From Pseudonocardia sp. (GTDB lineage: Bacteria > Actinomycetota > Actinomycetes > Mycobacteriales > Pseudonocardiaceae): a DNA stretch of 41,276 nt. The notes beneath the pieces were generated by a model that saw only the letters and a program-made list of their open reading frames with translations, was not told the origin of the DNA and ran no database searches. Shown in pieces: positions 3,096 to 11,437 of this stretch; within the stretch, counting starts at the first letter, position 1; each line of letters starts with the position of its first letter. The DNA is taken from assembly GCA_016794615.1 (NCBI GenBank), contig JAEUJO010000020.1:1-41276 (forward strand), read 5' to 3'. Position numbers and translations under genes: made by a program.

Positions 3096-4264
3096 GACTG
3101 ACACGATCGAGACGGGGGATCCACGCGGGCCTCGCCGCCGCGGCGGCGGTGCTGGCCCTGGGCCTCGCGGCCTGCTCGACCACGCCCCAGGCCCCATCGG
3201 GCGGGGGTGCCGCCTCCGGCTCGGCCGCGGGCGTGTTGACGCCCGTCAAGTTGCAGCTGCAGTGGGTGACCCAGGGCCAGTTCGCCGGCTACTTCGCCGC
3301 CGTCGACCAGGGCTTCTACCGGAAGCGCGGGCTGGACGTGCAGATCCTCGAGGGCGGCGTCGACATCGTCCCGCAGACGGTGCTCGCGCAGGGCCAGTCC
3401 GATTTCGCGATCGCCTGGGTGCCCAAGGCGCTCGCCTCGCGCGAGCAGGGCGCGGGCATCACCGACGTCGCGCAGGTCTTCCAGCGTTCGGGCACCTACC
3501 AGGTGTCGTTCGCGAACAAGGGGATCACGGCGCCCGACGCCCTGCGCGGCAAGAAGGTCGGCAACTGGGGCTTCGGCAACGAGTTCGAGCTGTTCGCCGG
3601 TATGACGAAGGCGGGGATCGCGCCGTCCGACGTCACGCTCGTCCAGCAGCAGTTCGACATGCAGGCGCTGCTCAACGGCGAGATCGACGCCGCCCAGGCC
3701 ATGTCGTACAACGAGTACGCGCAGGTGCTGGAGGCGACGAACCCGGCGACCGGCCAGCTCTACCAGCCGTCCGACTTCAACGTCATCAACTGGAACGACG
3801 TGGGTACCGCGATGCTCCAGGACGCCATCTGGGCCAACACCGAGAAGCTGTCGGACCCGGCCTACCAGGACACGACGACGAGGTTCATCGCCGCGTCCCT
3901 GGAGGGCTGGGTGTACTGCCGCGACAACCCCGAGTCATGCCGCGACATCGTGGTGAAGGCCGGCTCGAAGCTGGGGGCGAGCCACCAGCTGTGGCAGGTC
4001 AACGAGATCAACAAGCTGATCTGGCCGTCGCCCGCGGCCGGGGTCGGCACGATCGACCAGGCGGCGTGGGACCGGACGGTGCAGGTCGCGCTGCAGGCCA
4101 AGAACGCCGACGGGGCGACGGTGCTGACCAGGCAGCCCGACGCCCAGGCGTTCACCAACCAGTACGTCGGTGCGGCGCTGGACGTGCTGAAGGCCGAGGG
4201 CGTCGACGTCGTGGGGGCGGGCTTCGCCCCGGAGACCGTGACGCTGAAGGCCGGCGGCGCCTGA
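3092..4264 (+). CDS. NMT1/THI5-like substrate-binding lipoprotein
   Basis: A 390-residue extracytoplasmic binding protein. The N-terminus is a lipoprotein signal peptide with lipobox LAAC (Cys28). The mature part begins with a Gly/Ala/Ser linker and then LQLQWVTQGQFAGYFAA, the NMT1/THI5 opening seen in proteins that bind hydroxymethylpyrimidine-type thiamine precursors or related small molecules. Later landmarks are YYRKRGLDV-like FYRKRGLDV, a GKKVGNWGFGNEFE hinge and two conserved Cys in VYCRDNPESCRD. AGGAGAG upstream acts as ribosome-binding site. Family assignment is firm. A pyrimidine/thiamine-precursor substrate is inferred, and no thi genes or TPP riboswitch adjoin to support it. Confidence 0.88.
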   Translation: MRLTRSRRGIHAGLAAAAAVLALGLAACSTTPQAPSGGGAASGSAAGVLTPVKLQLQWVTQGQFAGYFAAVDQGFYRKRGLDVQILEGGVDIVPQTVLAQGQSDFAIAWVPKALASREQGAGITDVAQVFQRSGTYQVSFANKGITAPDALRGKKVGNWGFGNEFELFAGMTKAGIAPSDVTLVQQQFDMQALLNGEIDAAQAMSYNEYAQVLEATNPATGQLYQPSDFNVINWNDVGTAMLQDAIWANTEKLSDPAYQDTTTRFIAASLEGWVYCRDNPESCRDIVVKAGSKLGASHQLWQVNEINKLIWPSPAAGVGTIDQAAWDRTVQVALQAKNADGATVLTRQPDAQAFTNQYVGAALDVLKAEGVDVVGAGFAPETVTLKAGGA

Positions 4265-9869: not shown

Positions 9870-9951
9870 TCGGGGGGGCGGGCGCCCACCCGCTGTCGCA
9901 CGGCGGCCGGCCCCGACCGGTGTCCCGCTCGCCGATCCCGCTCGCGCGCGG

Positions 9952-10455
9952 TCAGGGGCGGGGGCGGCGCAGGCGGGGGTGCAGGTCGGCGCCGGTGGCG
10001 ACGGCCGGACCGTCGCGTTCAACGCGGTCGGCCAGTGCCTCGACGTGGCGGACCAGGTCGTCGAGGGCGAGGTCCGCAGGCGGTGGGCCGGTCCATCCCA
10101 CCCGCCAGTGGGCGACGTGCGCCGCTCCGCGCCGCAGCAGCGCCACCGCGCCCCGGGCGTTGCCCCGCTGCAGGTGCGTCAACCCGACCGCGAGCTGCGC
10201 CAGCCCCCGCCACAGCTCCCGCTGCGCGGGCTCGGCGGCCTTCCACGCGGCCTCCAGCACCTCGTGGGCGTGGAACGGCATTCCCTCGTCCAGCAGTCGC
10301 TGGGCCTCGTCCACGCTCTCCTTCGGGCCGAGCACCAGGTCGTCCGGCACGCGCTCGACCCCGACGGCTCCGCGCGGCAGCGGGCGTCCGGCGGCGTCCC
10401 GGGGGCGCGCGTTGCGGGCGCGGCCCGCGGCGTCCCGGTCGCGCTTGTCGGTCAT
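9952..10455 (-). CDS. DUF309 family protein
   Basis: A 167-residue cytoplasmic protein. After a basic, probably disordered N-terminus comes the DUF309 helical core: FHAHEVLEAAW (about 79-89), WRGLAQLAVGLTHLQRGN and GAVALLRRGA. The family has no settled biochemical role. ATG 10455 is chosen because the core is complete from there. An in-frame GTG nine nt upstream is possible, and longer versions would run into the tRNA gene. No clear ribosome-binding site is seen. It faces away from pdtaR and shares the intergenic space with the tRNA gene. Confidence 0.8.
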   Translation of the reverse strand: MTDKRDRDAAGRARNARPRDAAGRPLPRGAVGVERVPDDLVLGPKESVDEAQRLLDEGMPFHAHEVLEAAWKAAEPAQRELWRGLAQLAVGLTHLQRGNARGAVALLRRGAAHVAHWRVGWTGPPPADLALDDLVRHVEALADRVERDGPAVATGADLHPRLRRPRP

Positions 10456-10623
10456 GTTGTTCACAGTGCCACGCCCGTTCACCGTGCCCCAGCTGCGGCC
10501 CGGGCGCTGGATCCGGGTGTGGCCCGTGCTGCGGAGGCGGTCCAGCGCGGCGCGGCACAGGGCGAGAATGTCGAGTGACGTGTCCCATGGTCGCGCAGGC
10601 CGCCGACAAGAATCCGTCGAAAG

Positions 10624-10697
10624 TGCCCCCGGTGGGATTCGAACCCACACTGTATGGATTTTGAATCCATTGACTCTGCCGGTTGGTCTACGGGGGC
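10624..10697 (-). tRNA. tRNA-Leu (anticodon CAA), short variable arm
   Basis: On the minus strand: acceptor GCCCCCG/CGGGGGC (7 bp), a 3-bp D-stem GAC/GTC with GG in the loop, anticodon stem ATGGA/TCCAT with loop TTCAAAA (T33, anticodon CAA, reads UUG), variable region of only 5 nt (ACAGT), T-arm GTGGG-TTCGAAT-CCCAC and discriminator A. CCA is not encoded. Total length is 74 nt. Leucine tRNAs are normally class II with a long variable arm, so the short variable region is notable. The anticodon and A73 both fit leucine. Confidence 0.9.
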
Positions 10698-10801
10698 TTC
10701 ATTCGTCCGGTCCGGTGAAGGACCGGTCACACAGTGCTTCCAGCATAGCCCGGTACCCTGGGGTCTCCCGGTTCGACCCGTTCCACAGAGGAGATTGCCC
10801 G
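10698..10801. promoter_or_regulatory. Divergent promoter region for tRNA-Leu and pdtaR
   Basis: On the plus strand TACCCT (10754-10759) is a candidate -10 box about 43 nt before pdtaR, with a weak -35. On the minus strand TATGCT (10742-10747) is a candidate -10 about 45 nt before the tRNA 5' end. A small inverted repeat CCGGTCC/GGACCGG (10707-10726) lies between. GAGGAG around 10788-10793 is the pdtaR ribosome-binding site. Box assignments are by eye. Confidence 0.35.
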
Positions 10802-11437
10802 GTGGCCCAGCAGGTTCCCGACGACGACGGCGGTACGGCGACGGCGGTCGCGGCCCCCGCACTGAAGGTCCTCGTGGTGGAGGACGAGGCCCTGATCCGG
10901 CTCGACCTGGCTGAGATGCTCACCGAGGAGGGCTACGTCGTGGCCGGTGAGGCGGCGGACGGCGAGCAGGCCGTCGAGCTGGCCCGCCGGCTGCACCCCG
11001 ACCTGGTCATCATGGACATCAAGATGCCGAAGGTGGACGGCATCACCGCGGCGACCAGCATCGTTGAGGAGCGGATCGCCCCCGTGGTGATGCTCACCGC
11101 GTTCAGCCAGCGCGAGCTCATCGAGCAGGCGCGCGATGCGGGTGCCATGGCCTATCTCGTGAAGCCGTTCGCCCGCCACGAGCTGGTACCGGCGATCGAG
11201 CTGGCGGTGTCGCGGTTCGCCGAGAAGCGCGCTCTGGAGGACGAGGTCGCCACGCTGAGCGAGCGGCTGGAGACCCGCAAGGTCGTGGACCGGGCCAAGG
11301 GCCTGCTGATGACCCACCAGCAGATGACCGAGCCGGAGGCGTTCCGCTGGATCCAGCGCACGGCGATGGACCGGCGGACGACGATGAAGGCCGTGGCCGA
11401 GGCGGTCGTCGAGGGGTTGGCGACACCGCGGGCGTGA
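10802..11437 (+). CDS. pdtaR: PdtaR-like response regulator with ANTAR RNA-binding domain
   Basis: A 211-residue transcription antiterminator of the two-component type. The receiver domain (about 21-140) has acidic EDE at 27-29, phospho-acceptor Asp72 in LVIMDIKMP, Thr99 and Lys121 in LVKPFA. A coiled linker (EKRALEDEVATLSERLE) leads to the ANTAR domain (about 150-207, VVDRAKGLLM...AFRWIQRTAMDRR), which binds paired hexaloop hairpins in nascent RNA. GTG 10802 follows a GAGGAG site. In mycobacteria the orthologue is phosphorylated by the sensor kinase PdtaS, which is not in this window. Position next to tRNA-Leu and near rpsA/coaE/uvrB fits actinobacterial synteny. Confidence 0.93.
   Translation: MAQQVPDDDGGTATAVAAPALKVLVVEDEALIRLDLAEMLTEEGYVVAGEAADGEQAVELARRLHPDLVIMDIKMPKVDGITAATSIVEERIAPVVMLTAFSQRELIEQARDAGAMAYLVKPFARHELVPAIELAVSRFAEKRALEDEVATLSERLETRKVVDRAKGLLMTHQQMTEPEAFRWIQRTAMDRRTTMKAVAEAVVEGLATPRA

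Follow-up and report, generated by a model that had tools for sequence, protein, structure and literature searches.

Organization of the locus

The window, meaning the whole stretch of 41,276 nucleotides that was analyzed, carries on its reverse strand a tRNA gene whose divergent neighbor is a pdtaR-like response regulator, the name pdtaR having come from an earlier reading of the letters alone (hereafter the sequence-only reading) and not from a database match. The locus comprises the following features.

10624..10697, reverse strand: tRNA-Leu(CAA), class I, with a 5-nt variable region and CCA not encoded (Rfam, 59.8 bits; ARAGORN; identity table)
10624..10624, reverse strand: discriminator base A73 (anatomy and flanking bases)
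10649..10653, reverse strand: variable region ACAGU, its final base U48 being the partner of A15 (A15-U48 pair according to the accessible part of PMC9976931)
10661..10663, reverse strand: anticodon CAA, reading UUG, with A37 and A38 next to it on the 3′ side (ARAGORN and anatomy)
10672..10688, reverse strand: leucine-type D arm with A14, A15, G18G19, C20-A20a, unpaired 13/22 and a 3-bp D stem (determinants according to the accessible part of PMC9976931)
10742..10747, reverse strand: TATGCT, a −10-like hexamer 50 nt upstream of the tRNA (our own look at the upstream sequence)
10802..11437, forward strand: pdtaR-like response regulator, divergent neighbor of the tRNA, inside the ORF 9920..11437

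The tRNA gene matched the Rfam family RF00005 over model positions 1-71 of 71 (10697-10624, reverse strand), and belongs to the family by its full length and its score, which at 59.8 bits (E 1.3e-10) exceeded the gathering score of 29. ARAGORN called a tRNA-Leu with anticodon CAA at 10623-10697, one base longer at the 3′ end than the Rfam call. The acceptor, D, anticodon, and T stems comprised 7, 3, 5, and 5 bp, respectively, the D stem being formed by the pairs 10-25, 11-24, and 12-23, with 13 and 22 unpaired. The anticodon loop was UUCAAAA, the 31-39 pair was formed, and A73 was followed by CUUUCG, hence CCA is not encoded. At 5 nt, the variable region was shorter than the 10 nt or more that mark a class II tRNA in the accessible part of PMC7609411. 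Alongside the leucine anticodon, the gene had all of A73, A14, A15, U48, G18G19, and A20a, with a presumed contact between 15 and 48.

The sequence-only reading had described a complete cloverleaf with a CAA anticodon, a discriminator A, and a 5-nt variable region, all of which Rfam, ARAGORN, and the anatomy bore out. Its assignment as a tRNA-Leu(CAA) with class I architecture likewise held, given the full-length Rfam match and the retained leucine determinants. It had also treated the 3-bp D stem as an oddity; the stem is present, but is normal for a tRNA-Leu, because the long leucine tRNAs of the same genome leave 13 and 22 unpaired as well.

Upstream, the TATGCT hexamer is at most a tentative promoter candidate. 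All 19 loci considered, this one included, had a TANNNT hexamer in the 75 nt upstream, at varying distances. A scan of 10500-10900 for sigma-70 consensus promoters and terminators found none.

The leucine tRNA set of the genome

The assembly, a 4.36-Mb draft, comprises 367 contigs and is 96% complete; it yielded 27 tRNA genes, and 26 distinct ones were tabulated. Its leucine tRNAs fell into two shapes, CAA, UAA, and UAG being short, and CAG and GAG long; the short UAA and UAG genes are located at G000:C68:5630-5703 and G000:C78:3517-3590. All five had A14, A15, U48, A20a, and A73 together with unpaired 13/22. Among the other 21 tRNAs, the five bases occurred together only in tRNA-Lys and tRNA-Ala(UGC), both of which pair 13 with 22. 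A tally of CAA readers, as the sequence-only reading had proposed, returned the window tRNA alone among the 27 genes of this 96% complete draft. A second, long CAA tRNA could still lie elsewhere in the genome, because the draft is in 367 contigs and only 27 tRNA genes were found. Within the reading frame of the genome's leucyl-tRNA synthetase (LeuRS), leucine codons were CTG (64), TTG (9), and CTC (1), with no TTA, CTA, or CTT.

Conservation at the same chromosomal place

We compared the surroundings of pdtaR homologs at 80 named loci, the best of 587 encoding a relative, with flanks of up to 2.5 kb. The encoded regulators were 67-88% identical to that of the window, the closest named ones coming from Pseudonocardia. 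By ARAGORN, 73 of the 80 loci held a tRNA, which was always a tRNA-Leu(CAA), short in 64 and long in 9. Conservation beside pdtaR, the comparison that the sequence-only reading had called for, was thus found in 64 of the 73 tRNA-bearing loci, and the same count tells against the case named there as its undoing, a base error hiding a long arm. Six of the nine long forms belonged to Nocardia, one to Pseudonocardia nigra, and two to metagenome bins; P. nigra has a long-armed tRNA-Leu(CAA) at pdtaR where other Pseudonocardia have a short one. In the flanks around pdtaR, ARAGORN found no tRNA in 7 of the 80 loci (two Saccharothrix, three Lentzea, Herbihabitans, and one Actinophytocola bin).

Stem pairs were compared across 44 unique cellular short CAA tRNAs, and every pair of the acceptor, D, and T stems was formed in all 44. 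Two-sided changes were present in the D stem, where 10-25 was GC in 33, UA in 9, and AU in 2, and 11-24 was CG in 37, UA in 5, AU in 1, and GC in 1; 13/22 was paired in none. In the anticodon stem, 30-40 was paired in 43 of 44. The pair adjoining the anticodon loop, 31-39, was formed in 21 and unpaired in 23, with A.C in 19.

Distribution in Actinomycetes

A pattern for UUR-reading tRNA-Leu was applied to 88 genomes of the class. It asks for a leucine-like D loop and misses some genes, among them some long forms. Matches occurred in 82 genomes, and among the matches listed 72 genomes were parsed, of which 66, from 26 of 29 families, had at least one short UUR-reading tRNA-Leu. Short tRNA-Leu are therefore common in the class and not an oddity of this locus. 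The six genomes that had no match (G094, G173, G224, G234, G253, and G262) are large and all belong to one genus (g25) of one family (f18), in which the D loop or T loop may differ. Among the matches listed, CAA genes were short in 49 cases and long in 22, and UAA genes short in 43 and long in 11 (one 8-nt region being counted as long). In the 52 genomes with both anticodons among these matches, the CAA/UAA shapes were short/short in 25, long/short in 17, short/long in 9, and long/long in 1, with the last gene being used where a genome had two of one anticodon; the CAA and UAA isoacceptors thus vary in shape independently. Across 119 genomes of the phylum, short and long forms both occurred outside the class among the matches listed.

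In 13 chosen genomes, UAA was short in all 13, while CAA was short in 9 (own included), long in 2, and unmatched in 2. Specifically, of the 12 named relatives, eight had a single short CAA tRNA without a long counterpart, two had a long one, and two had no CAA match; both of the latter have a known long CAA tRNA, which is why we consider the pattern to miss some long forms.

The other isoacceptors were read by eye in 25 genomes (own included). CAG was long in 25 of 25, and GAG, found in 24, was long in all 24. UAG, found in 13 of the 25, was short in 12 and long in one. One further genome feature was a short tRNA-like match with a CAG anticodon (G041:C51:185179-185222), located beside the usual long CAG tRNA. 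Taken with the codon use of the genome's LeuRS gene, the isoacceptor shapes indicate that the short type serves the rarer codons in this sample, rarity having been counted in that one gene.

Phages, viral contigs, and plasmids

With the window tRNA as query, blastn matched 27 phage records, of which 20 were listed and seven of these examined. Six of these seven encoded short tRNA-Leu, so that the type is also found in phages of several bacterial phyla: Pseudomonas phages 254 and ZC03 (one of the two having two such tRNAs), Myxococcus phage Mx1, Gordonia phage Phendrix, Lactobacillus phage ATCC 8014-B2, and Prochlorococcus phage P-SSM7. The genes are annotated and 73-77 nt long. Of the seven phage tRNA-Leu read, six had CCAA or similar before G18G19 and four had the NCAGU-GUGGG string; they differ from the window tRNA in being phage-carried and in their anticodons, UAG in three, UAA in two, and CAA in two. 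Pseudomonas phage vB_PseuGesM_254 has, next to its short UAG gene, another short tRNA-Leu, with anticodon CAA (68-141), whose D arm differs. In Gordonia phage Rabbitrun, positions 4120-4168 match the 3′ part of the window tRNA; the match is unannotated and lies about 200 nt from the integrase gene. It is probably an attachment site that copies a short tRNA-Leu(CAA), and such tRNAs are hence probably integration targets.

IMG/VR was scanned for exact occurrences of a short-type string running from the end of the variable region through the T arm, which leaves the anticodon and D arm free. There were at least 120 matches, of which 80 loci were kept. A tRNA containing the string was present in 78 of them, and all 78 had leucine anticodons (UAA 57, CAA 10, UAG 8, GAG 2, AAG 1). 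The variable region was 5 nt in 77 and 6 nt in one, and long forms made up 18 of the 115 tRNA-Leu in the same 80 loci. One viral locus contained pdtaR. Seven plasmid records, all from actinobacterial genera and one of them an 11.9-Mb record, also had matches. A search of E. coli genomes with the UAA tRNA of the window's genome found nothing related at E 1e-5.

Leucine determinants and a shared core

From 569 tRNAs, 429 remained after duplicates and unparsable sequences had been dropped: 143 short tRNA-Leu, 27 long tRNA-Leu, and 259 others. G18G19 was required for parsing, hence the determinant counts do not test it. The combination of A14, A15, A20a, U48, and A73 was present in 136 of the 143 short tRNA-Leu, 26 of the 27 long, and 15 of the 259 others; with unpaired 13/22 added, these became 135, 25, and none. 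A fuller leucine set that adds positions 21 and 22 occurred in 124 short, 20 long, and no other tRNAs. In addition, A9, C12-G23, C13, and C45, all present in the window tRNA, characterized 117 of the 143 short tRNA-Leu and none of the 27 long or 259 other tRNAs. This core set and the fuller leucine set were picked on the same data, so their counts describe rather than test. Among 27 unique short tRNAs from the pdtaR loci, the core set occurred in 24 and the fuller leucine set in 25.

Relative to the canonical class II tRNA-Leu, the short type has the same commonest states at A14, A15, U48, A20a, G21, A22, and A73 and in the unpaired 13/22, and lacks the long variable arm. It also mostly has A9, C12-G23, C13, and C45 where the canonical form has G9, G12-C23, G13, and G45 and, unlike the latter, mostly has a U50-A64 pair. 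Positions 9, 12-23, 13, and 45 are part of the tertiary core of class I tRNAs, which suggests that the short tRNA-Leu have had theirs rebuilt to dispense with the long arm.

Affinities were pursued with a crude isotype scorer that used position frequencies, was trained without short tRNA-Leu, and left out the anticodon and arm length. The window tRNA scored −84.9 as Lys, −90.8 as Arg, and −92.0 as long Leu, and the best isotypes of the 143 short tRNA-Leu were Lys (65), Met (27), long Leu (23), and others (28); as controls, 13 of 19 tRNA-Lys and 26 of 27 long tRNA-Leu were recovered. The D arm and determinants match long tRNA-Leu, and the remainder scores closer to tRNA-Lys. A tree was built from 147 tRNAs, comprising 35 of the 64 cellular short tRNA-Leu (window included), 35 of the 79 viral ones, all 27 long ones, and 50 of the 259 others. 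The short tRNA-Leu did not form one clade on it, at least six changes being needed, but with 67 columns, too few to decide, 13 of the 140 inner branches were starred. Two lines of descent were considered, from a long tRNA-Leu that lost its arm or from a class I tRNA recruited to leucine; neither was established by the scorer or the tree.

LeuRS and the reading of UUG

One LeuRS gene of the genome exceeded the cut-off (joined 901 bits), other listed hits reaching at most 56 bits. We placed leucine codons of LeuRS genes on alignment columns from 26 genomes, less two of unknown CAA state and one with a broken gene. On well-filled columns, TTG fell at leucine-majority positions in 71 of 92 cases in 13 short-CAA genomes and in 23 of 28 in 10 long-CAA genomes. 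For pdtaR, TTG was on leucine columns in 86 of 94 cases in 65 short-CAA genomes (own included) and in 14 of 17 in nine long-CAA genomes, while CTG in the same test gave 524 of 603 and 82 of 95, respectively; the ATG rows are invalid as a control, since methionine has one codon. Within the reach of this test, UUG is thus read as leucine whether the CAA tRNA is short or long. The TTA codons of LeuRS, three in short-CAA genomes with none on a leucine-majority column and seven in long-CAA genomes with four on leucine columns, are too few to weigh but run contrary to a leucine reading.

In its accessible part, PMC9976931 states determinants for the E. coli and A. aeolicus LeuRS. In E. coli tRNA-Leu, A73 is crucial, and A15-U48, G18G19, and A20a are likewise essential. 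The E. coli enzyme has no crucial need of the variable arm, whose sequence and folding are uncorrelated with charging, and minimal tRNAs without the arm stay active. The same source describes human mt-tRNA-Leu(UUR) as recognized without a variable arm.

Probable function and charging of the short tRNA-Leu

The window tRNA is very probably a functional, UUG-reading tRNA-Leu that the ordinary LeuRS would charge with no need of a long arm, a reading that presumes expression, charging, and the enzyme's mode of recognition. The sequence-only reading had left two alternatives, recognition by LeuRS in the absence of the arm or some other charging, and our sequence comparisons favor the former, because the determinants are kept, one LeuRS gene exceeds the cut-off, UUG lies mostly on leucine columns, and both UUR-reading tRNAs found in the genome are short. 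LeuRS would then recognize A73 and the corner of the D and T arms (A14, A15-U48, G18G19, and A20a), and one enzyme would have to serve both long and short tRNA-Leu. The window tRNA would be one of a class I type of tRNA-Leu that, across many Actinomycetes, is used for UUA, UUG, and CUA codons, while the CUG and CUC/CUU tRNAs stay long in the relatives sampled.

Charging with another amino acid, such as lysine or methionine, would recode UUG. The nearer score to tRNA-Lys than to long tRNA-Leu outside the anticodon points that way, as do the five bases shared by the genome's own tRNA-Lys and tRNA-Ala(UGC) and the 21 of 92 LeuRS TTG codons of short-CAA genomes on columns that have no leucine majority. 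However, the TTG share is similar in long-CAA genomes, pdtaR places TTG on leucine columns as often as CTG, the unpaired 13/22 resembles long tRNA-Leu and not the own Lys and Ala tRNAs, and none of the 259 other tRNAs combines the full determinants with that unpaired position. We consider such recoding very unlikely. Equally unlikely is a pseudogene or attachment-site remnant no longer working in translation, a view to which the lack of a consensus promoter or terminator at 10500-10900 and the probable role of such tRNAs as integration targets, seen in Rabbitrun, lend something. Against it stand the acceptor, D, and T stems, whose pairing persists, with compensatory changes, across 44 relatives, and the gene's standing as the sole CAA tRNA of the 27 detected. 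That the sequence comes from a single draft assembly leaves room for a sequencing or assembly error that hides a long arm, yet the short length recurs at this place in other assemblies (64 of 73) and the UAA and UAG tRNAs of this genome are short too, making such an error scarcely credible.

Beyond the functional tRNA-Leu itself, we tentatively raise a broader and rather doubtful scenario, in which the class I tRNA-Leu would be a distinct type, its core rebuilt, that travels between phages and Actinomycetes and has more than once supplanted long-armed tRNAs for the rare codons UUA, UUG, and CUA (in the case of CAA, at the same chromosomal place), possibly since a short arm hides it from toxins or defense nucleases that read the long arm. 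The long-arm rule for bacterial tRNA-Leu is built into tRNA classing and bears on toxins that choose tRNAs by their arm. If an actinobacterial class that includes the mycobacteria, together with many phages, breaks this rule for rarer codons, one LeuRS must charge both shapes. This would offer a natural test of how little of a tRNA-Leu the enzyme reads, and would have implications for the exchange of phage tRNAs and for LeuRS as a drug target.

Relation to known short tRNA-Leu

Single short tRNA-Leu genes are already mentioned or hinted at in print, as far as the sources were accessible. A literature search, with subscription journals mostly outside it, gave no paper recognizable, from the parts available, as treating the short tRNA-Leu of Actinobacteria or phages as one family. 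The accessible parts of PMC7609411 and PMC4033280 had no case of a short tRNA-Leu, and those of PMC11415595 and PMC4524478 nothing on tRNA-Leu arm length. Within the literature thus covered, we encountered no class-wide, isoacceptor-specific type with a shared core. One close precedent is mycobacterial: within a tRNA gene cluster, a tRNA-Leu(TAG) is noted for its "short variable loop" (PMC6582537), likewise a short-loop tRNA-Leu of Actinomycetes; in its accessible part, the remark concerns a single gene, with no family, isoacceptor rule, or determinants. Mitochondrial tRNA-Leu(UUR) also has no long arm and takes its identity from A73 and A14 (PMC9976931, accessible part), but is organellar and has its own LeuRS. 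Finally, what was accessible of PMC2265525 places several short-armed Leu, Ser, Tyr, or Sec tRNAs as derived in its tree and mentions takeovers, and that of PMC8450103 describes a human Met-like tRNA-Leu-CAA without the arm.
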